Origin: Paracoccus seriniphilus
GTDB taxonomy: Bacteria > Pseudomonadota > Alphaproteobacteria > Rhodobacterales > Rhodobacteraceae
Direction of reading: 5' to 3'
Length of the DNA stretch: 64,000 bases
Assembly (NCBI RefSeq): GCF_028553745.1
Contig: NZ_CP067129.1
Location: forward strand, 1,470,501-1,534,500
Made by a program: the position numbers and the translations under genes
Shown: positions 3,828 to 18,641 of the stretch, one piece after another
How positions within the stretch are numbered: the first letter of the stretch is position 1
Layout: each line of letters starts with the position of its first letter
Notes under the pieces: model-generated
The model's database searches: none
What the model was told of the DNA's origin: nothing
What the model saw: the letters and a program-made list of their open reading frames with translations, nothing else

Positions 3828-5954
3828 ATGAAGGATGCAATCACGGATATCCTGCGGGTCGAGATCGAAGACGGAATCGGCCTGATCTGCCTGAACAAAC
3901 CACCGGTCAATGCGCTGGGTGTGGCATTGCGCACAGCCATTCACGCGGCCTATGGGACGCTGCGCGACGATCCGGCGGTCAAGGCAATCGTTCTTTATGG
4001 CGAGGGGCGTTTCTTTTCCGCCGGGGCCGACATCAAGGATTTCGGCAAGGCCGATCTTCAACCGACCCTGCCGCAGGTTCTCAAGGCATTGCAGGATAGC
4101 GACAAGCCCGTGGTCACGGCCCTGCATGGTGTGGCCTTTGGCGGAGCGCTGGAACTGGCGCTGGCCACCCATCTGCGGGTCGGGCTGAACGGTCTGCGCA
4201 TTGCGCTGCCCGAGGTCCGGCTGGGGCTGTTGCCCGGTGCCGGCGGTGCGCAGCGCCTGCCCCGGCTGACGGGGATCGCAGCTGCAATCGACATCATCTG
4301 CTCGGGGCGCGAGGTCGGGGCACAAGAGGCCCTTGGTCTGGGCATCATTGACCGGCTGGCCGATGGGTCCCCTCGTGAGGCCGGGCTGGCTGCCGCGCGC
4401 GATATTCTGGCCGGCCGGCTGACGCCGCGCCAGACCGACAGGCTGAGCGCGGGCGAAGATCCGCAAGCCGTCGAAGCAGCGCGCCAACGCCTGACGGCCA
4501 AACGACCCGCGCTGCTTGCGCCACTGAAGGCGCTGGAGGCGGTCACCGCGGCAAGCCTGCCCATCGAGGAGGGGCTTGCAAGGGAACGCGCCCTGTTCAT
4601 GGAACTGATGCAGGGCGAGGAACGCGCCGGTCTGGTTCATGCCTTTTTTGCCGAACGCGCCACCAGCAAGATCCCCGAAAGCACGGCACCCCTGCGCCTG
4701 ATCGAACAGGTGGCGGTGATCGGTGGCGGTACCATGGGCGTCGGCATTGCCACCAGCCTGCTGATCGCAGGCTATCGCGTGCAGTTGATCGAGGCACAGG
4801 GTGAGCGCCTGCCAGCGGTGCGCGCCGCTATCGAGGCCAATCTGGCCGGCGCCCTGAAGCGGGGCAAGCTGACCGCGAATGGCCATGGCGATGCTCTGCT
4901 GGGTTTCAGTTGTGGCGAGGCGCTGGAGGCGGCGGCGAATGCGGATCTGGTCATCGAGGCCATTTTCGAGGATATCTCGGCCAAGACCGAACTCTTCGCC
5001 CGGCTGGACCGGATCTGCAAGACCGGCGCGATTCTGGCCAGCAATACCTCCTATCTGGATGTGAATCTCATCGCCGAGGCCACCTCGCGCCCGGCGGATG
5101 TGATCGGCCTGCATTTCTTTTCGCCCGCACATATCATGCGGCTGCTTGAGGTGGTCGTGGCGGATCGGACTGCGCCGGATTGCGTCAGCACCGCCTTCGC
5201 GCTGGCGCGCAGGTTGGGCAAGGTGCCGGTGCGGGCAGGGGTCTGCGATGGTTTCATCGGCAATCGCATCCTGACCCAATACCGACGCGCGGCCGAATAC
5301 CTGTTGCTGGATGGCGCCAGCTTTGAAGAGATTGACAGCGCACTAGAGGAATTCGGCTTTGCGATGGGGCCCTTTGCGGTCTCGGACCTGGCCGGGCTGG
5401 ACGTTGCCAAGGCCACCCGTGACCGCAAGGCCGCGACCCGCCCCCCGGATGAACGCTATTCTCGCGTGGCCGATCTGATCTGCGCGCAGGGCTGGTACGG
5501 GCGCAAGACCGGTCGCGGCTATTACATCTATGACAAGGCCGCACCCCGGCGTGCCAATCCCGATGTTCTGGCAATCATCGATGATGAACGCAGGGTCTTG
5601 GGTATCACCGCGCGCGCGTTCAGCAATCAGGAGATCGTCGACCGCTGCCTGACGGCGATGATCGCCGAGGCCGTGCGCGTCATCGAAGAGGGTGTGGCGC
5701 TGCGTCCGGTCGATGTCGATGCGGTCGAACTGTTCGGCTATGGCTTTCCCCGCCATCGCGGCGGGCCGATGTTCCAGGCGGATCGGATCGGGCTGCCCGT
5801 CCTGATCGACCGGATCGAGAGATTCTCCCGCGAAGACCCGCAGTTCTGGCGCGTGCCCGAACTGCTGCGCCGCATGGCGCAGGCGGGGGAAGGCTTTGCG
5901 CCGATGAACGACCAACCACTTTCAACGACCGAAAAGAGAAACTCCCATGAGTGA
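3828..5954 (+). CDS. Enoyl-CoA hydratase / 3-hydroxyacyl-CoA dehydrogenase fusion (FadB/FadJ-like)
   Basis: This 708-residue bifunctional protein matches the size of FadJ and peroxisomal multifunctional enzymes. Residues ~1-190 are a crotonase fold with FFSAGADIKDFG, HGVAFGGALE and Glu129 in the PEV motif before LGLLPGAGGAQRLPR. From about residue 295 an NAD-binding Rossmann segment begins (AVIGGGTMGVGIA), followed by SNTSYLD and the catalytic-His region GLHFFSPAHIM. It would hydrate a trans-2-enoyl-CoA and oxidise the 3-hydroxyacyl-CoA, feeding the thiolase upstream. The start at 3828 follows GGGGAGAAAGA. The last 8 bp overlap the next gene, indicating translational coupling. A partner thiolase subunit like FadA would be the gene at 2619. 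Confidence 0.92.
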   Translation: MKDAITDILRVEIEDGIGLICLNKPPVNALGVALRTAIHAAYGTLRDDPAVKAIVLYGEGRFFSAGADIKDFGKADLQPTLPQVLKALQDSDKPVVTALHGVAFGGALELALATHLRVGLNGLRIALPEVRLGLLPGAGGAQRLPRLTGIAAAIDIICSGREVGAQEALGLGIIDRLADGSPREAGLAAARDILAGRLTPRQTDRLSAGEDPQAVEAARQRLTAKRPALLAPLKALEAVTAASLPIEEGLARERALFMELMQGEERAGLVHAFFAERATSKIPESTAPLRLIEQVAVIGGGTMGVGIATSLLIAGYRVQLIEAQGERLPAVRAAIEANLAGALKRGKLTANGHGDALLGFSCGEALEAAANADLVIEAIFEDISAKTELFARLDRICKTGAILASNTSYLDVNLIAEATSRPADVIGLHFFSPAHIMRLLEVVVADRTAPDCVSTAFALARRLGKVPVRAGVCDGFIGNRILTQYRRAAEYLLLDGASFEEIDSALEEFGFAMGPFAVSDLAGLDVAKATRDRKAATRPPDERYSRVADLICAQGWYGRKTGRGYYIYDKAAPRRANPDVLAIIDDERRVLGITARAFSNQEIVDRCLTAMIAEAVRVIEEGVALRPVDVDAVELFGYGFPRHRGGPMFQADRIGLPVLIDRIERFSREDPQFWRVPELLRRMAQAGEGFAPMNDQPLSTTEKRNSHE

Positions 5955-7002
5955 AAATGGCGGACCGCCTCTGGTCACTGTCAGCGAGGCACTCAGCTTT
6001 GACGAGGCCGCGCTGCAACGCTATCTTGCCGATATCCTGCCGGGTTTCGACGGCCCGCTGACGGTACGCCAGTTCAATGCCGGGCAAAGCAATCCGACCT
6101 ATCAACTTGCGGTCAGGGATCGCAAATACGTGCTGCGCAAGAAGCCACCGGGCACGCTGTTGCCTTCGGCTCATGCCGTGGACAGGGAATATCGGGTCAT
6201 GGAGGCGCTGCGCGATACGCCGGTCCCGGTGCCCCGGATGCTGCATCTGTGTCGCGATGCTTCGATCATCGGAAGCGATTTCTATGTCATGGAAATGGTT
6301 GAAGGTCGGGTCTTCCATGATCCCAGCCTGCCCGGATTGACCCCGCCGGACAGACGGGCCTTCTATGACAGCTTCATCAAGGCGCTGGCCGATCTGCACG
6401 CGGTGCGTCCCGAGACGGTGGGGCTGGCCGATTTCGGCCGCCCGCAAGGGTTCCTGTCGCGGCAGGTCCAGCGCTGGAGCAAGCAATATGTCGCAACGGA
6501 AACCGAAACCATCGCGGCGATGGACAAACTGATGGACTGGCTGCCGGCCAATCTGCCTCAGGATGACGAAGCCGCAATCGTGCATGGCGATTTCCGGCCG
6601 GGCAACGCCATGGCGGGCCAGCATTCCCCCGAGGTGATCGCCCTGCTTGACTGGGAACTTTGCACCCTTGGGCATCCTCTGGCCGATCTGGGTTATGTCT
6701 GCGCCAATTATCACGCCGATCAATTGCCCACCGGACAGTTCAAGGGGCTGGACTTCACGGCCCTTGGCATTCCCACTGAACAGGAGTTCCTGGACCTCTA
6801 TTGCCATTATTCGGGGCGGGACCGGATTTCCAACCACCTGTTCTTCGTCGTGTTTTCCTTCTTTCGCAGCGCGGCGATCATCCAGGGCGTCTACAAGCGG
6901 GGGCTGGAGGGCAATGCCTCTTCGCGCAAGGCCTTGTCGCTTGGACATCTTGCCCGCGTCAGAGCAGAAAATGCGTGGAGAATTGTCGAGCAGAACTTCT
7001 GA
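5947..7002 (+). CDS. APH-fold phosphotransferase family protein (ACAD10/11 N-terminal-like)
   Basis: This 351-residue protein has an aminoglycoside-phosphotransferase-like kinase fold. The nucleotide-site segment is FNAGQSNPTYQL with YVLRKKPPG, the catalytic loop is IVHGDFRPGN (His213, Asp215), and the metal-binding Asp is in LLDWELCTLGHPLADLGY. This subfamily is related to the N-terminal domain of the eukaryotic acyl-CoA dehydrogenases ACAD10/11. That domain is reported to phosphorylate 4-hydroxyacyl-CoAs. In bacteria these genes lie beside acyl-CoA dehydrogenases and beta-oxidation genes. Placement at the end of this operon, overlapping the fusion gene, suggests phosphorylation of a hydroxyacyl intermediate. 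That role is inferred; antibiotic resistance is unlikely. Confidence 0.8.
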   Translation: MSENGGPPLVTVSEALSFDEAALQRYLADILPGFDGPLTVRQFNAGQSNPTYQLAVRDRKYVLRKKPPGTLLPSAHAVDREYRVMEALRDTPVPVPRMLHLCRDASIIGSDFYVMEMVEGRVFHDPSLPGLTPPDRRAFYDSFIKALADLHAVRPETVGLADFGRPQGFLSRQVQRWSKQYVATETETIAAMDKLMDWLPANLPQDDEAAIVHGDFRPGNAMAGQHSPEVIALLDWELCTLGHPLADLGYVCANYHADQLPTGQFKGLDFTALGIPTEQEFLDLYCHYSGRDRISNHLFFVVFSFFRSAAIIQGVYKRGLEGNASSRKALSLGHLARVRAENAWRIVEQNF

Positions 7003-7077: not shown

Positions 7078-9699
7078 TCATTCGGCAGCCTCCATTTGCC
7101 TGACCTGCCCCAGCAGCACGGCAATTTCAGGTCGGCATGATCCGCAGTTGGTTCCCGCTCCGGTGCAGTCGCCGACCCTTGCCACGCTGCAGGCCTGCCC
7201 GCTGGCGATGGCTTCCCGGATCGTGTTCATGCCAACATTGAGGCATGCGCATACAACCGGGCCGGGGTCGGATGCATCGCGACCGGGGCGCCCTGACAGC
7301 GGCGCAGTTCCGGTCGATCCAAGTTGCGCCGCAATATGGTCACGCGACAGGGAAACAGGATTGCGGGACACGAAGAGAGCCGCCAGCAATGTATCACCGT
7401 CAAGAAATGCAAGGCGGGCGGTGCCGGTTGCCGGGTCGGAGATGCTCTGGCACCGGGCATCCGGCAGGGAAAACAGGGCGCGGGCATAGGTTTCCCAATC
7501 CTGCGCCTCTCTGGTTCCGGCCAATTCGCTTCGCCAGCCTTTCGCCACGCAACAGCGCGCCCAATAGGTGCAATCAGGCCGGAATTCGGTGGTGCTGATG
7601 GCAAAACCGAACCATGCGGTGTCATGGGGCGCAATGGCGACTGCGGCGGCCTTGCTCTCCGGTTGGCCAGACACTGGATCAACGATGCTTGATACCAGCG
7701 CATCGATACGACCCGTCGGGGCGCTCTGTCCGCTCCAATGCATGGGCGCAAAGACGTGACCGCACCGCACGCGGTCGGTGACCAATGCGCGCAGGATGCA
7801 GCGGCCTGCGGGACTGCTGACCTCGACCAGACCGGCAGGCGGAATCCCAAGCTGCGCCGCATCATCAGGGTGTATTTCGAGGAACGGCTCTCCCAGATGC
7901 TGGTTCAGCCGCGGCGATTTGCCGGTGCGCGTCATCGTGTGCCATTGGTCGCGGATGCGACCGGTGTTCAGGCGGAAGGGAAAAGCGGCATCGGTTTGTG
8001 CAACCGGTGGACGCGCGCTCACGGGGATCATTCGTGCCTGGCCATTATCGGTGAAGAAGCCACCGTCGGCGAAGAAACGCGCCTGCTGGCCTTGGGCCGT
8101 GATGGGCCAGCGGGTAGGGGGCAGCGCATCGTACCCGTCCCGGCCCAGCCCGGTCAGTCCGGAGATGTCGAAGTCACGTCCTTCGGCCGCCGCGATGGCC
8201 GACAGCCGCGCATGTTCGTCGAATATCTGGGCCGGGCTGGAATAGTCGAAGGCCTCGGTCCAGCCCATGCGGCGGCCAACCTCGGCCATGATGTCCCAAT
8301 CGTGGCGCGCCTGGCCCGGTGCGCGCATGATGGCCCGCTGGCGGCTGATGGTGCGGTCGGAATTGGTGACGGTGCCGTCCTTTTCTCCCCAGCCGGTGGC
8401 GGGCAACAACACATCTGCCAGACGCGCGGTATCTGTCCGGGCGGTCAGGTCGCTGACGACCGTAAAATCGCAACCGGCAATGGCCTCTTGCACGATATTG
8501 GCGTCGGGCATGGTGGCGGCAGGATTGGTGCAGACGATCCACAATGCCTTGATGTGGCCGCTGCGGACCCGGTCGAACAAATCAACGGCTTTCAGTCCCG
8601 CCTGGGCAGGGATTGCGGGTGCATTCCAGAAGTCGCGCAGCCTTTCGCGGTGGTCGGGATTTTCCAGATCCAGATGGCAGGCCAGAGAGTTGGCCAGACC
8701 GCCAACCTCTCGTCCGCCCATCGCATTGGGTTGCCCGGTTACGGAGAACGGCCCCATGCCGGGTTTGCCGATACGTCCTGTCGCCAGATGACAGTTGATG
8801 ATCGCATTGACCTTGTCGGTCCCTGACGACGATTGGTTCACTCCCTGGCTGAAGACTGTGACGACCTTTTCCGTGCCCAGCCACAACTGGCAGAATTCAT
8901 CGATCTGATCAGGGGGCAGACCGGTGGCTGCGCCATCCTCGGCCAACGCGACACGCAAGGAGTCGTCAAAACCCGAGACGTGCCGGAGGTATTCGCGGTT
9001 CACCGCGCCGCCTGCATGGATTGCGGCGAGAAGGCGGTTGAACAAGGCCACGTCGCTGCCTGGTTCCAGTGCCAGATGCAGATCTGCCAGATCGCAGGTC
9101 GCCGTGCGGCGCGGGTCGATGACGACGACACGCATGTCGGGGCGGGCCTCTTTCGCGGCGGCGATGCGTTGATACAGGACCGGGTGGCACCAAGCCAGAT
9201 TGCTGCCGGTCAGAACGACCAGATCGGCCAATTCCAGATCCTCGTAAGTTCCCGGAACCGTGTCCGCGCCAAAGGCGCGCTTGTGCCCCGCCACGGTCGA
9301 GGCCATGCAGAGGCGGGAATTGGTATCGATATTGGCTGACCCGATAAACCCCTTCATCAGCTTGTTGGCGACATAGTAATCCTCGGTCAGGAGCTGACCC
9401 GAGACATAGAAAGCGACGGAATCCGGCCCATGCGTCGCGATTGTTTGCGAGAATCGCTCGGCGACCAATGCCAGCGCGCTGTCCCAGTCACTTTCGATGC
9501 CATTGATGCGCGGGGCCAGCAGCCGGTCATCCAGAGACAGGGTTTCGCCCAATGCAAAGCCCTTTGAACACAGGCGCCCCTGGTTGGCCGGATGGTCGGG
9601 ATCGCCGCGCAGGGTGACGCCGCCCTGACCATCGGCTTTGGCCAGGATGCCGCATCCGACCCCGCAATATGCACAGGTGGTCCGGATCTCGTCGGTCAT
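7078..9699 (-). CDS. nasA: Assimilatory nitrate reductase catalytic subunit
   Basis: This 873-residue cytoplasmic molybdopterin enzyme reduces nitrate to nitrite. The N-terminus holds a [4Fe-4S] motif with Cys9, Cys12, Cys16 and Cys44. The central region is the bis-MGD oxidoreductase fold (for example VFSQGVNQSSSGTDKVNAI), and a dinucleotide-binding domain follows near residue 600 (FPFRLNTGRIRDQWHTMTR). The last ~60 residues form a BFD-like [2Fe-2S] domain with Cys residues in VVCACLN and GAGTNCGSC. It has no flavin or NADH domain, so electrons must come from a partner. NirB with the NirD ferredoxin is the obvious candidate, as reported for the Paracoccus Nas system. Its ATG overlaps the nirD stop by 4 bp, and it is the last gene of the operon. 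Confidence 0.95.
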   Translation of the reverse strand: MTDEIRTTCAYCGVGCGILAKADGQGGVTLRGDPDHPANQGRLCSKGFALGETLSLDDRLLAPRINGIESDWDSALALVAERFSQTIATHGPDSVAFYVSGQLLTEDYYVANKLMKGFIGSANIDTNSRLCMASTVAGHKRAFGADTVPGTYEDLELADLVVLTGSNLAWCHPVLYQRIAAAKEARPDMRVVVIDPRRTATCDLADLHLALEPGSDVALFNRLLAAIHAGGAVNREYLRHVSGFDDSLRVALAEDGAATGLPPDQIDEFCQLWLGTEKVVTVFSQGVNQSSSGTDKVNAIINCHLATGRIGKPGMGPFSVTGQPNAMGGREVGGLANSLACHLDLENPDHRERLRDFWNAPAIPAQAGLKAVDLFDRVRSGHIKALWIVCTNPAATMPDANIVQEAIAGCDFTVVSDLTARTDTARLADVLLPATGWGEKDGTVTNSDRTISRQRAIMRAPGQARHDWDIMAEVGRRMGWTEAFDYSSPAQIFDEHARLSAIAAAEGRDFDISGLTGLGRDGYDALPPTRWPITAQGQQARFFADGGFFTDNGQARMIPVSARPPVAQTDAAFPFRLNTGRIRDQWHTMTRTGKSPRLNQHLGEPFLEIHPDDAAQLGIPPAGLVEVSSPAGRCILRALVTDRVRCGHVFAPMHWSGQSAPTGRIDALVSSIVDPVSGQPESKAAAVAIAPHDTAWFGFAISTTEFRPDCTYWARCCVAKGWRSELAGTREAQDWETYARALFSLPDARCQSISDPATGTARLAFLDGDTLLAALFVSRNPVSLSRDHIAAQLGSTGTAPLSGRPGRDASDPGPVVCACLNVGMNTIREAIASGQACSVARVGDCTGAGTNCGSCRPEIAVLLGQVRQMEAAE

Positions 9700-10031
9700 G
9701 CAACCCGCTCCCGCCGCAGCCCTTGCGTGTCCAGCATGATGCGTCCGGCCTCGACCCGGAGGGGATAGGTGTTGACTGCCCCCGTATCAGATCCCTGAGC
9801 CAGCCCGGTATCCAGCCGCAGAACCATGTTGTGCAGCGGGCATGTCACCGATTTGCCATGCACGATACCTTCGGACAGGGGGCCTCCCTTATGGGGGCAG
9901 CTGTCATCGATGGCAAAGACTTCGTCATCAATGGTGCGAAAGATCGCGATGCAGCCCATATGGGTCTTCACCACGCGGGCGCCCCGTTCGGGGATGTCGT
10001 TCAATGCGCCGATATCGGTCCAACAGGTCAT
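9696..10031 (-). CDS. nirD: Nitrite reductase small subunit with complete Rieske motif
   Basis: This 111-residue protein starts with MTCWTDIG at 10031, whose ATG overlaps the nirB stop by 4 bp. The larger open frame upstream is not homologous. It has all four Rieske [2Fe-2S] ligands: Cys45 and His47 in SCPHKGG, and Cys64 and His67 in TCPLHN. Enterobacterial NirD lacks the cluster, whereas the Paracoccus homologue NasG is a Rieske ferredoxin. It therefore probably passes electrons from NirB towards the siroheme and possibly on to NasA. Overlaps at both ends (ATGA with nirB and with nasA) indicate tightly coupled translation. Confidence 0.93.
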   Translation of the reverse strand: MTCWTDIGALNDIPERGARVVKTHMGCIAIFRTIDDEVFAIDDSCPHKGGPLSEGIVHGKSVTCPLHNMVLRLDTGLAQGSDTGAVNTYPLRVEAGRIMLDTQGLRRERVA

Positions 10032-12472
10032 TCCGCGGCCTCCATGGTCAGATCTGCAAGGGGGGAATACAGTTCGCGGTAGCTGGCCTTGGTGCGTTCT
10101 GCCCAGGGGTCTTGCTGCATGAACTGCTGGGCGAAATGGAACCGCTCGGCCAGTGCCTTGCGGCTGTCTCCATCCGTCACCACACGTTCGACGATGTGAT
10201 CCAGGCCGACATTGTCCAGCCACTTGTACATCCGCTCAAGATAGGCGGCTTCTTCGCGATACAGCTGGATGACCGCTGCGCAGTATTCCATGACCTCGTC
10301 TTCGGTCTTGACGGTGCACATGATCACCGTGCCCTGGATATGCAGGCCAGCCGCACCACCGATATGCAGGATATAGCCTGAATCGACGCAGATCACGCCC
10401 ACATCCTTGCAGGTGCTTTCGGCACAGTTGCGCGGACAACCCGATACCGCCATCTTGACCTTGGCGGGCGTCCATGCCCCCCACAGGGCCTTTTCCAGAC
10501 GGATGCCAAGACCTGTACTGTCCTGTGTCCCAAAACGACAATGGTCGGTGCCGACACAGGTTTTCACCGTGCGCAGGCCCTTGGCATAGGCCTGTCCGCT
10601 GACCATGCCGGCCGCGTTCAGATCGGCCCAGATGTCGGGCAGGTCCTGCTTCTTGACGCCCAGCAGGTCGATGCGCTGTCCGCCGGTGACCTTGACGGTC
10701 TGTACCTGGTACTTGTCTGCCGCATCGGCGATCGCGCGCAGTTCATCGGCAGTGGTGATGCCACCCCACATGCGTGGCACGACGGAATAGGTGCCGTCCT
10801 TCTGGATATTGGAATGCATGCGTTCGTTCACGAAACGGCTTTGATCGTCGTCGCGGTATTCGCCGGGCCAGTCGCAAAGCAGATAGTAGTTCAGTGCCGG
10901 ACGACACGAGGCGCAGCCGCAGGATGTTTTCCAGCCGCATTCCTGCATGACGGCAGCCATCGACTTCAGTTCCCGTGACTTGATCAGGCGGCGGACATCC
11001 ATATGGGTCAGCGATGTGCAGGAACACATCGGCTTGACGGTCTCGACCTCGAAGCTGTCGCCAAGAGTCATGGCCATGACCTGTTCCACCAGACCGGTGC
11101 AGGTGCCACAGGATGCGCTGGCCTTGGTCTGCTCGCGCACATCGGTCAGCGTCCGGGCACCGCCCTGGATCGCATCGACGATGCGGGATTTGCATATGCC
11201 GTTGCAGCCGCAGATTTCTGCGTCAGCCGGTAAGGCTGCAACGGCCGCCAAAGGGTCCGCCTGGGCACCCCCCTGGAACGCGGGGCCAAAGATCAGCGTG
11301 TCGCGCATGTCGCTGATGTCCGTGCGGTCCTTGATCAGACCGTGAAACCATGGACCGTCGCCGGTATCGCCATACATGACGGCCCCGATCAGGCGCTGGC
11401 CTTCAAGCACAAGTCGCTTGTAGATACCACGCGCGGGATCGCGGAAGATGATATCCTCGCGATCGTCAGCATCGGCGAAATCACCCGCGCTGAACAGATC
11501 GCAGCCGGTCACCTTCAGCTTGGTTGCGACCTCTTTCGGGGCAAAGCTTGCGGGCGTGTCACCCAATGTATCGGCGGCCACCCTGGCCTGATCGTAAAGC
11601 GGCGCGACCAGGCCGAAAACCGCGCCCTGATGTTCGACGCATTCCCCGATTGCCAGAATATTCGGGTCCGATGTGATCATGGCGTCATCGACGTGGATGC
11701 CGCGACCGACAGCCAGACCGGCCTCTTTGGCCAGTGCCACATTGGGACGGATCCCCACGGCCATGACCAGCAGGTCGCAGGCGATGACACGGCCGTCATC
11801 CAGGCGCAGACCGCTGACATGACCGTCGGTGCCGATGATTTCCGAAGAATTGGCCGAGGTGAGGACGGTAATGCCCTTTGCCTCCAGTGCCTTTTTCAGA
11901 AGGTATCCCGCCGCTTCGTCCAGCTGACGTTCCATAAGGTGGCCCATGACGTGAATGACGGTAACATCGACACCACGTGCCGCCATGCCGGCGGCGGCTT
12001 CGAGCCCAAGCAGCCCGCCGCCGATGACCACGGCCTTTGCCCCCGGTTTCTTGGCCAGACCCATCATGCGTTCGGTATCATCCAGATCGCGATAGGGGAT
12101 GACACCCTGCAGATCATGGCCCGGCAGCGGGATCATGAAGGGGTTCGACCCGGTGGCCATGACAAGGCGGTCATAGGCGAGTTCACCCCTCTCGCCGATG
12201 ACGACGCGGCGCTCGCGGTCGATCCTCTGGACCTTTTCGCCAAAGCGACAGGTCACGGATTGCGCAGCGTACCAATCATCATCATGGGTGACGATCTCGG
12301 CATAGGTCTTGTCGCCCGACAGCACCGGCGACAGCATCAGCCGGTTGTAATTTCCGCGCGGTTCGGCGTTGAACAGGGTGACGTTCCATTCACCCGGTTG
12401 GGTTTCGAAAAGATGCTCCAGCATCCGGCCCGAGGCCATCCCGGCCCCTATGACGATCAGGTTTCTGGTCAT
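10028..12472 (-). CDS. nirB: Assimilatory NAD(P)H nitrite reductase large subunit
   Basis: This 814-residue cytoplasmic flavoprotein carries out six-electron reduction of nitrite to ammonium. It begins with the FAD site LIVIGAGMASGRM, then has an NAD-binding segment (AVVIGGGLLGLEAA). Two Cys-rich BFD-type segments follow: ICGCNGICKS with SCGTC, and MCSCTS with SCGCASC. The C-terminal sulfite/nitrite reductase domain binds siroheme and [4Fe-4S] through KTCVGTDHCRFG and SGCPRNCAEST. The length is near the family norm. It begins 3 bp after the tandem ABC ATPase gene and ends overlapping nirD. It probably supplies electrons to both nitrite and nitrate reduction, since no separate electron-donor flavoprotein is encoded in the unit. 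Confidence 0.96.
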   Translation of the reverse strand: MTRNLIVIGAGMASGRMLEHLFETQPGEWNVTLFNAEPRGNYNRLMLSPVLSGDKTYAEIVTHDDDWYAAQSVTCRFGEKVQRIDRERRVVIGERGELAYDRLVMATGSNPFMIPLPGHDLQGVIPYRDLDDTERMMGLAKKPGAKAVVIGGGLLGLEAAAGMAARGVDVTVIHVMGHLMERQLDEAAGYLLKKALEAKGITVLTSANSSEIIGTDGHVSGLRLDDGRVIACDLLVMAVGIRPNVALAKEAGLAVGRGIHVDDAMITSDPNILAIGECVEHQGAVFGLVAPLYDQARVAADTLGDTPASFAPKEVATKLKVTGCDLFSAGDFADADDREDIIFRDPARGIYKRLVLEGQRLIGAVMYGDTGDGPWFHGLIKDRTDISDMRDTLIFGPAFQGGAQADPLAAVAALPADAEICGCNGICKSRIVDAIQGGARTLTDVREQTKASASCGTCTGLVEQVMAMTLGDSFEVETVKPMCSCTSLTHMDVRRLIKSRELKSMAAVMQECGWKTSCGCASCRPALNYYLLCDWPGEYRDDDQSRFVNERMHSNIQKDGTYSVVPRMWGGITTADELRAIADAADKYQVQTVKVTGGQRIDLLGVKKQDLPDIWADLNAAGMVSGQAYAKGLRTVKTCVGTDHCRFGTQDSTGLGIRLEKALWGAWTPAKVKMAVSGCPRNCAESTCKDVGVICVDSGYILHIGGAAGLHIQGTVIMCTVKTEDEVMEYCAAVIQLYREEAAYLERMYKWLDNVGLDHIVERVVTDGDSRKALAERFHFAQQFMQQDPWAERTKASYRELYSPLADLTMEAAE

Positions 12473-12475
12473 GGC

Positions 12476-14158
12476 TTACTCCGCAGCGATGGGGTTGCGT
12501 TTCGGTTTGGCGCCGTGTTCATATTCCGTAAGGAAATCAAGAACCTCTTGGCGATAGGCATAATAGTCTGGATGCGCCAGCAGCGCCTTGCGCGTGCGTG
12601 GACGTGGCAGGTTCACATCGGTGATCTTGCCGATGGTGGCTTGCGGTCCGTTGGTCATCATGACGACGCGGTCGGCCAGCAGGATCGCTTCATCGACATC
12701 ATGGGTGACACAGATGGCGGTGACCTTGGTGCGTGACCACACCTCCATCAGGACCTCTTGCAGTTCCCAGCGGGTCAGGCTGTCCAGCATGCCGAAGGGT
12801 TCGTCCAGCAACAGCAGCTTGGGAGAAAGGGCAAAGGCTCGGGCAATGCCGACACGCTGCTTCATGCCGTTCGACATGGATTGCGCACCACGGTCCATGG
12901 CATCGGCCAGGCCGACCCGTTCAAGATAGTATTCAACGACTTCCTGGCGTTCCGCCGGGCTGGCCCTGGGATAGACCTTGTCGACGCCGATCGCGACGTT
13001 TTCCTTGGCGGTCAGCCATGGGAACAGGTTGGGCGACTGGAATACGACCGCGCGTTCGGGATCGGCCCCGACGACATGGCTGCCGTCCAATGTAATCGCG
13101 CCCTTCGATATCTCGTTCAGGCCCGCAGCCATTGTCAGCACGGTCGATTTCCCGCAGCCTGAATGACCGATCAGGCTGATGAACTCGCCCTGATTGACCT
13201 TGAGGTTGAAATCCTCGACCACGGTCAGCGGACCCTTGGGTGTGGGGTAGACCTTGTGCAGTTGTGAGAAATCCAGGAACCGCCGGTCGATCATGCCGTC
13301 GCGGGCGTCGCGCAACGCGTTTGGGATCATCTTGTGGACAGGCGTGACATCGGGCAGCCCCCGCGTTTCCGTGGATTTGGCCGCGAAACCGACATCCATC
13401 AGATATTGCGTGACCGAGGCGCGCAGCTTCTTGAACCCGGCGTCATGGTTCATCGCATCGCGGTTGCGCGGGCGGGGGATGTTCACCGTCACCGGATCGG
13501 CCAGGGTCCCATCGGGGTTCAGGACGATGATGCGGTCGGCAAGCAGGATCGCCTCATCCACGTCATTGGTGATCAGGATGCAGGTCTTCTTGTCGGCTTC
13601 CCAGATCTCCAGAATTTCATCGGCCAGATTTGCACGGGTCAGGGCATCCAATGCCGACAGCGGTTCGTCCAGCAGCAGCAGATCGGGTTCCATCGCAAGC
13701 GCGCGGGCAACGGCGACGCGCTGACGCATTCCGCCCGAGAGTTCCGACGGATAGCGATGTGCCGCATGGGGCAGGCCAACCATGGCGATATAGCTGTCGG
13801 CCTTTGTCGCACGTTCGGCCTTGGACAGCCTGGCGTGAACCGCATCGATGGCCAGCATCACGTTGCCGCGGACAGTCAGCCAGGGCATCAGGCTGTAGCT
13901 TTGAAAGACCAGCCCACGGTCGGGGCCTGGGCCGGTGATCGCATCGCCACGAAAGGTCAGGCTTCCGGTGTCGGGCTGTTCCAGTCCCGCGATCAGATTC
14001 ATCAGGGTCGATTTTCCCGTGCCCGAGAAGCCGAGGATGGCAAGGAATTCGCCCTCGGCCACATCAAGTGTGATGTCGCGCAGGATCTGTGTGTGATCTG
14101 TTCCCTGGCCGAAACCCTTGCTGACATTCTTGAACTGCAGGATGCTCATGCCGGTCAC
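12476..14158 (-). CDS. Nitrate ABC transporter, two fused ATP-binding domains (NrtC/NrtD-like)
   Basis: This 560-residue protein consists of two complete ABC ATPase domains in tandem. Domain 1 has Walker A at residues 43-51 (GFSGTGKST), signature LSGGMRQRV and Walker B LLLLDEP. Its switch loop reads ITNDVDEA, with Asn198 replacing the usual His. Domain 2 has Walker A at 331-339 (GHSGCGKST), an altered signature MSNGMKQRV and a normal switch His486 in VTHDVDEA. It would drive nitrate import with NrtA and NrtB. In cyanobacteria NrtC and NrtD are separate proteins. I took the GTG at 14158, which overlaps the nrtB stop. An ATG three codons later (14149) is equally possible. Confidence 0.92.
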   Translation of the reverse strand: MTGMSILQFKNVSKGFGQGTDHTQILRDITLDVAEGEFLAILGFSGTGKSTLMNLIAGLEQPDTGSLTFRGDAITGPGPDRGLVFQSYSLMPWLTVRGNVMLAIDAVHARLSKAERATKADSYIAMVGLPHAAHRYPSELSGGMRQRVAVARALAMEPDLLLLDEPLSALDALTRANLADEILEIWEADKKTCILITNDVDEAILLADRIIVLNPDGTLADPVTVNIPRPRNRDAMNHDAGFKKLRASVTQYLMDVGFAAKSTETRGLPDVTPVHKMIPNALRDARDGMIDRRFLDFSQLHKVYPTPKGPLTVVEDFNLKVNQGEFISLIGHSGCGKSTVLTMAAGLNEISKGAITLDGSHVVGADPERAVVFQSPNLFPWLTAKENVAIGVDKVYPRASPAERQEVVEYYLERVGLADAMDRGAQSMSNGMKQRVGIARAFALSPKLLLLDEPFGMLDSLTRWELQEVLMEVWSRTKVTAICVTHDVDEAILLADRVVMMTNGPQATIGKITDVNLPRPRTRKALLAHPDYYAYRQEVLDFLTEYEHGAKPKRNPIAAE

Positions 14159-15237
14159 CGCTGCGCCGAAAAGGTAAAGAATGACTGCATGGCGAACATC
14201 ACGCGATCCAGCAGGAAGCCGATGATGCCGATGGTCAGCACCGCGACGATAATGCGTGCCAGCGATTGCGAAGAGCCGTTCTGAAACTCGTCCCAGACGA
14301 ATTTGCCAAGACCGGGGTTCTGGGCCAGCATCTCGGCGGCGATCAGAACCATCCAGCCAACCCCCAGCGACAGGCGAAGGCCGGTAAAGATCAGGGGCAG
14401 GGCAGAGGGAAGCACCAGCTTTGTGATCTTGGTATAGGTATTCATCTTCAACACGCGGCTGACGCTGATCAGATCGCGATCAATCGAGGCAACTCCCAGG
14501 GACGTGTTGATCAGCGTTGGCCACAGCGAACACAGCGTCACGGTAATGGCCGATACAAGGAATGATTTGGAAAACAGCCCGTCGTTCGTGGCATAGACTG
14601 CGCTGACAACCATGGTCACGATCGGCAACCATGCAAGCGGCGATACCGGCTTGAAAATCTGGATCAGCGGGTTCAGTGCCGCATTGGCCGTGGGCGAAAG
14701 GCCCGCAGCGATGCCAAGCGGAATGGCGATCGCCGAAGCGATCAGGAAGCCGAAGAACACCGTTTTGATCGAGGTCCAGATTTGACCGTAATAGGTCGGC
14801 GATCCGGTATAGGCGATGTCCTTCACCTCGGATGCGCGTCCGGCATCGATCAGCCGTTGGTTGCGCTGTTCCAGACGTTCGTCGAACTTGGCCTGTTTTT
14901 CCCATTTGACGGTGGCATCATGATGCAAGCCCTTCGCCTCGGTCCATACGGCGACGGGACCGGGTATGGCCCCAAGCGAAGTCACGACCTTGGGCGCCAG
15001 CGTCGACCACAGCATCAGGAACACGACGATGGACAGCAGGGGCACACCCAGCAGACGCCAGACATCCTTTAGCTGGCCACGTGGGTTATCACCGGCGAGG
15101 GCCTTGATCAGAGGTGCGATCCAGGCAAGGCCCAGCACCGAAAACCATGCGTCTGCCTTGTTGATGCGGGTGAACCAGATGGCGCGGCGGGCTTCGCGTT
15201 GCTTGGCTGCAAGATGTGCGGGGTCGACAGCGGTCAT
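14155..15237 (-). CDS. nrtB: Nitrate ABC transporter permease
   Basis: This 360-residue inner-membrane protein is of the BPD_transp_1 type. The N-terminal ~150 residues include one or two hydrophobic segments (WFSVLGLAWIAPL, LLSIVVFLMLW) and a charged periplasmic-like stretch. From about residue 155 come the permease helices, with the family-typical pattern FKPVSPLAWLPIVTM and the EAA-like loop. The conserved region GVGWMVLIAAEM is typical of NrtB/SsuC permeases. The start at 15237 is preceded by CGGAGAG. It lies 59 bp after nrtA and overlaps the ATPase gene at its end. The N-terminal extension is longer than in cyanobacterial NrtB (about 280 residues). Confidence 0.93.
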   Translation of the reverse strand: MTAVDPAHLAAKQREARRAIWFTRINKADAWFSVLGLAWIAPLIKALAGDNPRGQLKDVWRLLGVPLLSIVVFLMLWSTLAPKVVTSLGAIPGPVAVWTEAKGLHHDATVKWEKQAKFDERLEQRNQRLIDAGRASEVKDIAYTGSPTYYGQIWTSIKTVFFGFLIASAIAIPLGIAAGLSPTANAALNPLIQIFKPVSPLAWLPIVTMVVSAVYATNDGLFSKSFLVSAITVTLCSLWPTLINTSLGVASIDRDLISVSRVLKMNTYTKITKLVLPSALPLIFTGLRLSLGVGWMVLIAAEMLAQNPGLGKFVWDEFQNGSSQSLARIIVAVLTIGIIGFLLDRVMFAMQSFFTFSAQR

Positions 15238-15296
15238 GGCGCTCTCCGATATGGCTATACTGAAGGGTTTGGGCCGTGGGGGGCAGCCCGTGCGGG

Positions 15297-16649
15297 TCAG
15301 CCGTTGGCGGGCTCGTCGGATTTCAGTCCGATCGGCAAGCTGTCCAGATAGGCATTGGGGGCCTTGCCGTCATAGGGGATGCCGTCGATGACATCGGCGG
15401 CGGGCGTCGGTGCCCTGTATCCGTCGCTGTCCCACGGAAAATCAGCCTCGGACGCCAGACCCTCATCGACCAGCAGACGCGCGGCCCGCAGATAGATGTC
15501 GGGGCGGTAGACCGATCTGGCGGTCTTGTCGAACCATGCGTCATCCCTGGGTTCGGAAATCTGACCCCAGCGTCGCATCTGCGTCAGGTACCAGACGGCA
15601 TCCGAATAGAACGGATATGTGGCGTTATACCGGAAAAAGACGTTGAAATCGGGCACATCGCGAATGTCTCCCTTTTCGTATTCGAAGGTGCCGGTCATGG
15701 ATGCGGCGATCACATCCTGATCGGCCCCCACGTATTCGGGCCGCGACAGGATCTCGACTGCTTCGGCGCGATTGGCATTGTCGTTTTCGTCCAGCCAGAT
15801 GGCAGCGCGGATCAGGGCCTTGGTCAGCGCAATGGTGGTGTTGGGATTTTCCGTGGCAAAGGCCTCGGTGATGCCAAAGACCTTTTCCGGGTTGTTCTTC
15901 CACAACTCGTAATCGGTGATGACCGGCACGCCGATGTCCTTGACGACGGCCTGCTGGTTCCACGGCTCGCCCACGCTATAGCCGTTGATGGTGCCTGCCT
16001 CCAGCGTTGCGGGCATCTGCGGCGGGGGCGTGACCGAAAGCGCCACATCCGCGCCGATCTGTCCCGAAGTGTCATCGGGGCTATAGAACCCGGGGTTCAG
16101 ACCACCCGCTGCCAGCCAGTAGCGCAATTCGTAATTGTGGGTCGATACGGGAAAGACCATTCCCATGTTGAACGGTTTTCCGGCCGCCTGATAGCTTTCG
16201 ACCACGGGTTTCAATGCGGATGCGCTGATCGGATGCTGGGGTTTGCCGTCGGTATCCGTCGGAATATTGGGCTTCATCTGCGCCCAGACCTCATTGGACA
16301 CGGTAATCCCGTTCCCGTTCAGATCCATCGAAAAGGGCGTGACGATATGCGCCTGTGTCCCATAGCCGATGGTTGCAGCCAGTGGCTGACCGGCCAGCAT
16401 ATGTGCGCCGTCCAGTTGTCCGCCGATCACACCGTCCAGCAGCACCTTCCAGTTGGCCTGAGCCTCCAGCGTGACGAACAGGCCCTCGTCCAGAAAATAG
16501 CCGTTTTCATAGGCCACGGCCAAGGGGGCCATATCGGTCAGCTTGATAAAGCCAAAGGTCAGTTCATCCTTTTCCAGATCCAGCATCTGGGCAAGGGCAG
16601 GGCCGCTAAGCAGGGTCGAAGCCAGCAGGCTGAAGACAAGTTTTTTCAT
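15297..16649 (-). CDS. nrtA: Periplasmic nitrate-binding protein of ABC transporter
   Basis: This 450-residue protein begins [20 protein letters not shown], a clear signal peptide, at 16649 with AGGGA 7 nt upstream. The longer open frame from 16724 runs through the regulatory leader and is not coding. The mature part matches Nrt[21 protein letters not shown] at its N-terminus, [13 protein letters not shown], and [13 protein letters not shown] near the ligand pocket. It would deliver nitrate (and perhaps nitrite) to NrtB and the tandem ATPase. It is the first structural gene after the 16742-16809 antitermination element, so its expression and that of everything downstream should depend on NasT. 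Confidence 0.95.
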
Positions 16650-16699
16650 GGTGTGGTCCCTGTGGTGATCCGCGGACGAAAAATGCGCCTGGACAAACG

Positions 16700-16750
16700 A
16701 AAAATAGCCGACGACCAGCCTCATGCTTTGGCACGAAGGGTCGAGCGGCT
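16700..16750 (-). terminator. Leader intrinsic terminator upstream of nrtA (attenuator)
   Basis: On the minus strand, AGCCG (16750-16746) and CGACC (16743-16739) pair with GGTCG (16716-16712) and CGGCT (16710-16706). They form a two-part stem with a small internal loop, followed by ATTTTT at 16705-16700. The stop would fall about 50 nt before the nrtA ATG. The 5' arm overlaps the loop and 3' arm of the second hexaloop hairpin (16757-16742), so the two structures exclude each other. This fits premature termination that is relieved when NasT stabilises the upstream hairpin. Confidence 0.75.
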
Positions 16751-16809
16751 TTGCTCGGGTGAACCCGGACTTTGGGGATGAGATCAGGCGAACGCCATTG
16801 TCTGCCTGA
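16742..16809 (-). promoter_or_regulatory. Two-hexaloop ANTAR (NasT) target RNA in the nrtA leader
   Basis: Hairpin 1 (16809-16784) has stem TCAGGC/GCCTGA, one A/C mismatch, then GAC/GTT, closing a loop AATGGC. Hairpin 2 (16757-16742) has stem CGAGC/GCTCG closing a loop AAAGCC. Both hexaloops have A at position 1 and G at position 4, the recognition signature known for ANTAR-domain antiterminators. The linker is 26 nt. Hairpin 2 overlaps the terminator at 16750-16700. With nasS and nasT just upstream on the same strand, this is the expected binding site of NasT. The structure was read by eye; no folding energy was computed. Confidence 0.8.
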
Positions 16810-16814
16810 CTTCG

Positions 16815-16843
16815 AATAAAGCGGACCGGGGCAGGGCAATCAA
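16815..16843 (-). promoter_or_regulatory. Possible sigma-70 promoter of the nrt-nir-nas operon
   Basis: On the minus strand TTGATT (16843-16838) and TTTATT (16820-16815) are separated by 17 bp. Each matches 4 of 6 consensus bases. A transcript starting about 7 nt downstream would begin almost exactly at the first hexaloop hairpin, which is what an antitermination leader would need. I saw no sigma-54 GG/GC pair in the same stretch. The match is weak, so this is a suggestion only. Confidence 0.35.
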
Positions 16844-16904
16844 CGATACTGCAGTCCGAGGGGGGTAAAATCTGTCCCTTGGAGCGATGATGCCGAAAAT
16901 CATG

Positions 16905-18005
16905 TCAGTCTGATGTTGCCAGGCCTAATTCTTGACCATCAAAAAAACGATCCGGGGCCGTTTCGCGTTCGCGATAGCCGGGAATTGCCTGCAGAACATC
17001 ACGATTCTGATCACTGCGATATGTCGCGATAGCGGCTGTGCGCGCAGCGGTCCGATCCAGCCCGAGGCGCGCTGCAAGCCGTTCACCAATCCACGCTGCA
17101 TGTGCGGCATGCGGGGCATAGCGGCTGAAATCGACGAATTTCGGGACGTGCCGGCTTTTGCCGCGCCCCGAAATGGTCAGATGGCCAGAAAGGGCACGGT
17201 CGATGATTTCGGCGGGAACATCCAGATACTGGCTGCCTGCCAGCAGCTCGCAGGCGGTGGTGCGGCTTTGCCGATCACTCAACCATTGCCCTGCATGCCA
17301 CAGCGCACGAATGGCCGCGCGCAGCGGTTCGGGATTTGCATCGGCCAGATCGGCGCGTACGCCCAGCACCTTTTCGGGAGCACCGGCCCAGATGGCCGAT
17401 CCGGGCAGCAGCAAAGCACCTGCGCCGGTTTCCACCGCCACGGATCCCCAGGGTTCGCCCACACAGATGGCGTCCAGTTCACCCGCCGCCAGCCCTGCCG
17501 CCATCAGCGGTGGCGGAACCGTGCGGATGTCGACCGAGGCCGGGGCGGGCAGGCCCAGTGCCGTCAACCAATAGTACAGCAGTTCGGCATGCATCGAAAA
17601 CGGAAAGGGAACTGCAATGCGCAAAGGCCCGCGCGCCGCAGCAATCAGGGCCCGGCCGGCAGCATCCGGGTCGTTCAGAGCGAAGGCGTGTCCAGCTTCG
17701 CGCATACGTGCGGCAATCGCCTTGCTGACACCAATCACTTCGCCATTGGTCGACAGCACGGCAACGGCTGCAAGGGGTGCCCCCGCACCGCCAAGCCCAA
17801 GCGCAGTCGCCACAGGCATGGCCGATAACATCTGAGCCGCGGTGACTTGCCCAAATGAGACCATGTCACGCAATGCAGACCAGGAATGCGCACGGCGAAG
17901 GTCCAGGGCGATGCCTTCCGCCCGGTCAAAGCCCATTTCGGCGGCGACAATCAGCGGTGCCGCATCGATCAACGGCAGGAAACCTATATGCAGTGTTGTC
18001 GTCAT
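16905..18005 (-). CDS. nasS: Cytoplasmic nitrate/nitrite sensor NasS
   Basis: This 366-residue NrtA-like ligand-binding protein has no signal peptide (it begins MTTTLHIGFLPLIDAAPLIV), so it stays in the cytoplasm. The binding-protein fold is recognisable from FALNDPDAAGR, FPFSMHAELLYYWLTALGL and AICVGEPWGSVAV, which parallel the periplasmic NrtA. In Paracoccus and Azotobacter NasS holds NasT inactive until nitrate or nitrite binds. It overlaps nasT by 4 bp (ATGA), as expected for partners made in fixed ratio. It ends just upstream of the nrtA leader, so the operon promoter probably lies in the 16810-16904 gap or the nasS 3' end. Confidence 0.93.
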   Translation of the reverse strand: MTTTLHIGFLPLIDAAPLIVAAEMGFDRAEGIALDLRRAHSWSALRDMVSFGQVTAAQMLSAMPVATALGLGGAGAPLAAVAVLSTNGEVIGVSKAIAARMREAGHAFALNDPDAAGRALIAAARGPLRIAVPFPFSMHAELLYYWLTALGLPAPASVDIRTVPPPLMAAGLAAGELDAICVGEPWGSVAVETGAGALLLPGSAIWAGAPEKVLGVRADLADANPEPLRAAIRALWHAGQWLSDRQSRTTACELLAGSQYLDVPAEIIDRALSGHLTISGRGKSRHVPKFVDFSRYAPHAAHAAWIGERLAARLGLDRTAARTAAIATYRSDQNRDVLQAIPGYRERETAPDRFFDGQELGLATSD

Positions 18006-18586
18006 GACAAGAGACCTGCTGTCGTGACCAGCGCCTCGGCAATGTCTATGACCTTGCGTCCCTGGTCCATGGCCGTTCGGCGCAACAGGGCATAGGCATC
18101 CGCCTCGCCAATGCCTTTGGCTTTCATCAGCAGCCCTTTGGCACGGTCGATGACCTTGCGTTCTTCCAATGCGCGTTTGGTCGCGGCCAGTTCGACACGC
18201 ATCTGACGGAACATGTTGAAACGTGTCACGGCCGCATCGATGATCGGCTTCAGCCGCTCTGACCGCAGCCCGTCGACGACATAGGCCGACACGCCGGCCT
18301 CGATCGCGATCCTCGTCAAATTCGCATCGCTTTGATCGACAAACAAGGCGACAGGCCGCTCCAGCGGCGCCGAAGCCAGAGTCAAGGCCTCCAGCGCGTC
18401 GCGCGACGGATTATCAAGATCAATCAACACGATGTCCGGATTATGGGCGACGATTGCTTCTGTCAGCCGTGCCATGTCGGACACGATGTTCAGCTCATAC
18501 TGACCCGCGCGCGACAGACTCTCTTCGATCAGGGCGGCCCGCGCCGGATCGCTTTCGACAATGGTAATCTTCAACAGCCGATGCAT
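18002..18586 (-). CDS. nasT: Nitrate-responsive transcription antiterminator NasT (ANTAR)
   Basis: This 194-residue protein has an N-terminal pseudo-receiver domain (KITIVESDPARAAL, DIVLIDLDNPSRD). The C-terminal ANTAR domain (ALEERKVIDRAKGLLM, then DAYALLRRTAMDQGRKVIDIA) binds paired hexaloop hairpins in RNA. I prefer the ATG at 18586 (MHRLLKITIVE), which matches usual NasT starts. An in-frame TTG at 18622 would extend it by 12 residues through a palindrome. Released from NasS by nitrate or nitrite, it should bind the leader at 16742-16809 and allow transcription of nrtA through nasA. Confidence 0.93.
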   Translation of the reverse strand: MHRLLKITIVESDPARAALIEESLSRAGQYELNIVSDMARLTEAIVAHNPDIVLIDLDNPSRDALEALTLASAPLERPVALFVDQSDANLTRIAIEAGVSAYVVDGLRSERLKPIIDAAVTRFNMFRQMRVELAATKRALEERKVIDRAKGLLMKAKGIGEADAYALLRRTAMDQGRKVIDIAEALVTTAGLLS

Positions 18587-18641
18587 GGGCAGAGCTTCTG
18601 CAGCAAATTGCCCAAAGGGCAATCAGAAAGGGCATTGCTGT

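Follow-up and report, generated by a model that had tools for sequence, protein, structure and literature searches.

The window, a stretch of 64,000 nucleotides of Paracoccus seriniphilus DNA, harbors a nas/nrt gene cluster on the minus strand, in which nasT and nasS lie directly upstream of a leader that is followed by the nitrate assimilation genes nrtA to nasA (Table 1). NasT carries a receiver domain and an ANTAR domain (8.7e-21), and its relatives in the PDB include the putative antiterminator 1s8n, EutV, NasR, and AmiR. In an alignment with the EutV residues described in the available text of PMC8934654, NasT keeps the equivalents of Met172, Arg168, Arg142, Lys143, and Tyr164, the last of which stacks on the G at loop position 4 (G4) in EutV, and differs at Asn173, Lys147, Arg175, and Arg177. 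No signal peptide was seen by eye at the N terminus of NasS, which is, as far as can be judged from its sequence, probably cytoplasmic. The cluster belongs to the NasS-NasT type, with a receiver-ANTAR protein encoded beside an NrtA-like sensor that has no evident signal peptide and adjoining nitrate assimilation genes. Of 80 regions taken from upstream of nrtA in the family, 77 have the order nasT-nasS-leader-nrtA. The original prediction had placed nasT just upstream of the leader; the nasT-nasS pair is located there, with nasS as the directly adjacent gene.

The ATPase of the nitrate transporter is a single 560-aa protein with two fused ABC domains. For the nitrate reductase, no NCBIfam model at cut-off was found among the matches listed. 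The nas/nrt cluster (7078-18622) seems foreign within its genus: NasT shares 82-86% identity with proteins from a Loktanella MAG and from three Sulfitobacter genomes, and the best matches listed from other genomes of the genus reach 64% over the full length and 68% in one 105-aa fragment.

Table 1. Genes and leader elements of the nitrate assimilation cluster in the window, and second hairpin arrays at other loci of the family
Feature	Position	Strand	Description
nasT	18002..18622	-	Receiver (PF00072) and ANTAR (PF03861) antiterminator; start codon uncertain
nasS	16905..18005	-	Nitrate/nitrite sensor; PF13379
Predicted -35 box	16838..16843	-	TTGATT; best-scoring sigma70-like pair in weighted scan
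Predicted -10 box	16815..16820	-	TTTATT; weighted scan; putative RNA start at about 16811-16808
P1 hairpin	16784..16809	-	TCAGGCAGAC-AATGGC-GTTCGCCTGA; 9 pairs and one A.C mismatch; hexaloop, A1 16799, G4 16796
Pm middle hairpin	16764..16776	-	CCC-AAAGTCC-GGG; 3 pairs; 7-nt loop, A1 16773, G4 16770
P3 hairpin, antiterminator	16742..16757	-	CGAGC-AAAGCC-GCTCG; 5 pairs; hexaloop, A1 16752, G4 16749
Intrinsic terminator	16700..16750	-	AGCCG...CGGCT-ATTTTT; stem 16750-16706, U-tract ATTTTT 16705-16700
nrtA	15297..16649	-	Nitrate-binding protein, first controlled gene; PF13379; signal-like N terminus by eye
nrtB	14155..15237	-	Permease; domain/family models
nrtC-nrtD	12476..14158	-	ATPase, two ABC domains in one chain; domain/family models
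nirB	10028..12472	-	Nitrite reductase large subunit; TIGR02374 above cut-off
nirD-like	9696..10223	-	Rieske protein; PF13806; start uncertain
nasA	7078..9699	-	Assimilatory nitrate reductase catalytic subunit; named from domains and context
Second array, L382	2028-2128		Directly before siroheme synthase CysG
Second array, L383	1995-2100		Directly before uroporphyrinogen-III C-methyltransferase
Second array, L384	about 3878-3940	-	Directly before siroheme synthase CysG

Layout and folding of the leader

Two hairpins with hexaloops carrying A at position 1 and G at position 4 (A1/G4), P1 (AATGGC) and P3 (AAAGCC), are present between nasS and nrtA as originally predicted, together with an intrinsic terminator. 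The 5' arm of the terminator is formed by the loop and the 3' arm of P3, so that P3 and the terminator are mutually exclusive, an overlap that had likewise been proposed; the 3' part of the terminator is also listed by a simple promoter/terminator scan of the window. A third hairpin, Pm, is situated between P1 and P3, with linkers of 7 nt to P1 and 6 nt to P3, and G4 is present in all three loops of the window as well as in most relatives.

The minimum free energy structure of the transcript preceding the terminator (16811-16741) consists of exactly the three hairpins P1, Pm, and P3. In this fold, the pairs of P1 and P3 have probabilities of at least 0.93 and 0.95, respectively, and those of Pm 0.5; with its 3 pairs and -2.1 to -3.1 kcal/mol, Pm is marginal in the window. 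When the RNA from the predicted start through the U-tract is folded, the terminator form (-47.0 kcal/mol) is favored over the form with P3 forced (-37.2 kcal/mol), and thus P3 needs help to win, in line with the earlier expectation that a second stem of only 5 pairs would depend on protein. With P1, Pm, and P3 all forced, the same RNA reaches -36.1 kcal/mol. A leader stretch of 141 nt folds better than 200 of 200 shuffled versions.

A sigma70-like promoter (TTGATT, 17 nt, TTTATT) is predicted here, with 15 nt between its end and the P1 loop. The corresponding distance of the best-scoring promoter is 12-20 nt in 65 of 77 leaders, compared with a mean of 15.2 and a maximum of 23 in 100 rounds of shuffled upstream sequences, whereas a stricter simple scan listed no promoter in the window. 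The location of the predicted promoter just before P1 suggests that transcription probably starts at the base of this hairpin. In a plain unrestricted fold, a helix CCCGG/CCGGG encloses P1. This helix was set aside because the predicted promoter boxes occupy the same place and it is, accordingly, probably absent from the RNA.

Conservation in related leaders

Relatives of NrtA were found in 110 of 295 genomes of the family (110 of 294 genera), and regions upstream of nrtA were taken from 80 of these 110 genomes. The 77 family regions containing nasT and nasS and ten leaders from the genus, including the window, gave 87 leaders. An automatic rule that requires P1, P3, and the terminator and ignores the middle was passed by 76 of the 87; among the 11 failures was the window itself, which has an interrupted terminator arm and was added by hand to give 77 leaders. 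The 10 other failures all match R1, the covariance model built for the three-hairpin array, with E values no higher than 9e-4. Counts of Pm and of linkers refer to the 73 leaders with a P1-P3 distance of up to 60 (65 from different genera and 8 from the genus of the window), four of the 77 with larger distances (L149, L174, L067, and L076) being left out. The structure-free alignment A2 comprises 72 of the 77 leaders, without these four and L088. P. denitrificans-type leaders, which also have three small hairpins, were kept out of the pooled counts. Among the named loci, the automatic rule was passed by 64 of 80 and failed by 16, including P. denitrificans, and a run of R1 on 54 chosen loci gave 42 matches at E up to 0.1.

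The A1/G4 motif occurs in 117 of 241 hexaloop hairpins in the leaders of 62 loci of the genus, including the window, compared with 24 of 390 in the nasS coding sequence of the same loci; 8 of originally 70 leaders had been dropped from this count as truncated or unrecognizable, and no nasS was obtained for one locus, L098. Chains of at least three A1/G4 hairpins are found in 34 of 77 leaders, whereas for the other 15 loop types a single leader of the 77 reaches three. The original prediction had suggested a search for compensatory changes in related leaders, and such changes are found in both outer stems. In A2, 85.5% of the pair cells of P1 are formed, with both-side changes at 6 of 7 pairs, and 93.1% of those of P3, with both-side changes at 2 of 5 pairs. 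The three loop-adjacent pairs of P1 and P3 were part of the selection rule, and the A2 counts are no proof for them; as A1/G4 of both loops also belonged to this rule, their invariance in A2 is not evidence either.

When R1 was run against the genome of P. seriniphilus, the leader of the window scored 61.5 bits (E 1.5e-13) and no convincing second NasT site was found, the next best match having an E of 0.136. In a search of the whole window with Rfam at gathering score, the leader was unmatched and one tRNA was found elsewhere; at E 1, no Rfam family matched the leader.

Judging from the aligned and shuffled sequences, the third hairpin Pm is conserved in most of the related bacteria examined. 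A hairpin with a 6-8-nt loop and G4 is present at the place of Pm in 65 of 73 leaders, compared with 8.0 +/- 2.4 (maximum 16) in 200 rounds of shuffling. With A or G at position 1 in addition to G4, the count is 59 (shuffled 3.5, maximum 9), and with A at position 1 it is 41 (shuffled 2.3, maximum 7). The other bases at position 4 are less enriched than G in these 73 leaders, with 25 for A (shuffled 10.1, maximum 18), 18 for C (13.0, maximum 20), and 14 for T (6.8, maximum 13), A and T still slightly exceeding their own shuffles. The 65 loops comprise 7 nt in 33, 6 nt in 20, and 8 nt in 12 cases, and position 1 is occupied by A in 41, G in 18, T in 4, and C in 2. In A2, 67.0% of the pair cells of Pm are formed, which is little above the 62.5 and 62.2% of the slid controls, and sliding the hairpin by -1 gives the same covariation score (0.166). 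Because CCC/GGG hardly varies, the shuffle test is the stronger evidence for Pm.

The G4 middle hairpin is missing in 8 of the 73 leaders. In L111 and L199, a 6-nt Pm loop has G at position 3; in L199, one A is missing and the G has moved to this position. L199 is one of the five nearest relatives by NasT, which stem from Loktanella, three Sulfitobacter, and Jannaschia (L199-L203). The sequence CCCAAAGTCCGGG is kept in four of the five, including L203, despite a quite different P1 stem and loop in the latter.

Some leaders deviate in other respects. By eye, the L079 leader of the genus seems to have four small hairpins in a row after nasS, with the middle loops GAGGAC and GAGGAT. L091 has a nasT-nasS pair, and no separate nrtA, nirB, or nasA match was found in its flank; in its leader, the first loop has lost A1 (CATGTC) and the U-tract is broken, and R1 still scores 25 bits. 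This leader is perhaps a decaying switch. Just after the nasS stop of several leaders of the genus, such as L084, L087, and L092, a near-palindrome of the type TGCTGCANNGCAGCA is seen by eye upstream of the promoter, which was not seen in the window and is possibly a regulator site.

Hairpin spacing and second arrays

The leader of the window shares with the ANTAR dual-hexaloop class an adjoining gene for an ANTAR protein, two A1/G4 hexaloops, and a last hairpin that excludes the terminator, whereas the P1-P3 linker of 26 nt exceeds the short linker of this class. In eut leaders, linkers of 5-12 nt are described, and induction fell drastically when the linker was changed to 3 or 14 nt (PMC3369931); 20 additional nt in the linker of an EutV target abolished antitermination in vitro (PMC8934654). 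None of the 73 leaders has a P1-P3 linker within the range of eut leaders. The distances to the middle hairpin are short, with a P1-Pm linker of 5-12 nt in 35 of 65 leaders, a Pm-P3 linker of 3-12 nt in 58 of 65, and a distance of 19-22 between the Pm and P3 loops in 56 of 65. The earlier description of the leader as a complete two-hairpin switch in which NasT clamps the second hairpin is therefore incomplete, since P1 and P3 are too far apart for a classical pair and the conserved Pm fills the gap.

Outside the family, loci were searched for A1/G4 hairpins that overlie a U-tract terminator and have another A1/G4 hairpin upstream as their partner. Such a pair was found in 8 of 20 distant loci, with the partner at 18-25 nt in seven and at 55 in one; in one of the seven (L346), a second site has partners at both 18 and 41. 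Among the loci of the class and phylum searches, 7 of 50 have a pair. The partner lies at 19-25 in L291, L296, L305, and L328, three of which have another at 45-67, and partners at 34-51 are found in L293, L299, and L279 of the window's own family; by eye, the spacing is about 27 in L280 and L281. As two-hairpin leaders elsewhere mostly show 18-25, the usual pair spacing corresponds to that of Pm and P3. P1 looks like an added upstream hairpin and may be a later addition.

At E 1e-4, R1 matches 68 of 198 genomes of the family, a lower bound due to stricter filters. In three of these 68 (G194, G211, and G215), there is a second match, and the second arrays directly precede genes for siroheme synthesis (Table 1). 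In all three, the loops are 20-23 nt apart and the array has a T-rich, terminator-like end. All three hairpins are well paired in L383 and L384; in L382, a mismatch adjoins the closing pair of the P1 stem, and the middle segment pairs otherwise when the leader is folded with the terminator. Nitrite reductases of this type use siroheme as their cofactor, which makes siroheme synthesis a sensible second target. Within the genus, 15 of 125 genomes match R1 at E 1e-3. The four weakest of these matches (G093, G024, G104, and G056) are probably due to chance; none of the eight window proteins compared had a match in the flanking 4 kb.

Known ANTAR systems and the putative mode of action

According to the available text of PMC3369931, PMC8934654, and PMC7496416, the eut leaders controlled by EutV and the nasF leader controlled by NasR also have small A1/G4 hairpins, the last of which overlaps a terminator, and an ANTAR partner. 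The leader described here differs from these in having three hairpins with distant outer ones and in its middle loop, which is most often 7 nt long and strongly keeps G4 alone. The latter fits the EutV structure, in which G4 is contacted and A1 is described without a specific contact (PMC8934654): the Pm loop keeps G4 and relaxes A1. The nearest three-loop precedent in the literature searched is the small RNA EutX, which has a dual hexaloop and a single hexaloop with G4 (PMC8934654); EutX sequesters EutV in the eut system, whereas the array of the window belongs to the leader switch of a nitrate operon. NasT leaders of nosR and other, different operons in Bradyrhizobium diazoefficiens are also described as acting by antitermination at leader hairpins (PMC6759348).

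Another known system is NasS-NasT of P. denitrificans, which has nasT-nasS directly upstream, hairpins in the leader, and nitrate assimilation genes (PMC5424462, PMC3795266), the first controlled gene being nasA there and nrtA here. In this organism, the nasA leader RNA is a binding target of NasT, and NasS-NasT comes apart in the presence of nitrate or nitrite (PMC3795266). Expression fell severely when the hairpin HI, which lies 137 bp upstream of nasA, was mutated, and the chromosomal HI mutant lost growth on nitrate; a mutated HII, at 91 bp upstream, made little difference with nitrate and caused a 2-fold rise with ammonium (PMC5424462). The leader of strain DSM 413 (L239) has three hairpins before the start codon at 6039, with loops at 5884 (AACGGC), 5909 (AATGAT), and 5932 (GACGAT). 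Judged by distance, HI would correspond to the first of these and HII to the third, and the middle one (5909-5914) is absent from the mutants described in the available text of PMC5424462. With HII taken as the third hairpin, the relatively unaffected expression after its mutation is a point against the three-hairpin model. No U-tract terminator pair was found in a search of the L239 leader, and the HII result is therefore not directly transferable to the leader of the window. P. denitrificans-type leaders of the genus (e.g., L239 5884-5937) often have a third loop GANGNN or AAGGGC after two A1/G4 loops, and contain an inverted repeat AAAGCG...CGCTTTCC without a U-run.

NasT attenuators before nitrate genes are already known, and the three-hairpin array is the new part; no description of a three-hairpin ANTAR target in a leader was found in the literature searched, the scope of which covered few subscription papers. 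Given its three hairpins, the overlap of P3 with the terminator, its conservation, and the neighboring genes, the leader is likely to be a three-hairpin ANTAR attenuator that is operated by NasT in response to nitrate or nitrite. The type of switch originally proposed stands, with the receiver and ANTAR domains of NasT, the competing terminator, and a predicted promoter upstream of P1. In the absence of nitrate, NasS would hold NasT, and the RNA would fold through P1 into the terminator before nrtA. Nitrate or nitrite would release NasT from NasS, as in P. denitrificans. P1, which is the most stable of the hairpins, might capture released NasT as soon as it emerges from the polymerase, and NasT might then reach P3 through Pm, which has ANTAR-like spacing from both neighbors. 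NasT on P3 would keep the terminator open, allowing transcription of nrtA-nrtB-nrtCD-nirB-nirD-nasA.

Two published models of ANTAR action differ in that a dimer would either bind the two hairpins simultaneously (PMC3369931) or pass from the first hairpin on to the second (PMC8934654). Our tentative proposal is a relay with three stations, in which P1 serves for strong capture, Pm retains only the G4 contact, and P3 is reached last; it would be used throughout the family, be reused for siroheme genes, and favor sequential binding over a simultaneous clamp. That Pm is an RNA spacer or a polymerase-pause hairpin that gives NasT time to load, and is no NasT site, appears rather unlikely: its CCC/GGG stem close upstream of P3, the frequent 7-nt loop, and the relaxed position 1 would suit such a role, which would have no need for a loop G4, the sole base that is contacted specifically in the structure of EutV with RNA (PMC8934654). 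We regard it as unlikely that P1 and P3 are the sole NasT sites, separated by a neutral, loosely folded linker. They are the best-formed hairpins and have proper hexaloops, Pm is weak in the window, and NasT is counted among the systems with a two-hairpin motif (PMC7496416); however, such a linker would not retain a G4 hairpin in 65 of 73 leaders, and the P1-P3 linker is in every case outside 5-12 nt while EutV fails at longer linkers (PMC3369931, PMC8934654).

An arrangement in which NasT is titrated by an upstream site made up of P1 and Pm, with antitermination by Pm and P3 alone, would be in keeping with the Pm-P3 spacing, which is like that of two-hairpin leaders elsewhere, and would parallel the EutV-sequestering EutX RNA, in which an extra single hexaloop stands beside the dual one (PMC8934654). 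It is very unlikely, as the severely lowered expression after mutation of the first hairpin in P. denitrificans (PMC5424462) makes P1 a positive element there. High G+C favors short hairpins, but their formation by chance around an ordinary terminator is extremely improbable given that the enrichment is specific to the loop and far exceeds that of shuffled sequences and of other loop types, and given the arrays before siroheme genes.

With a conserved array of three hairpins, outer hairpins too distant for a classical pair, and a middle loop that mainly keeps G4, simple mutants could separate the two models of ANTAR action. Searches limited to two close hexaloops can miss or misread NasT targets in this family. 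The second arrays indicate siroheme synthesis as a second target of NasT in some of its members.
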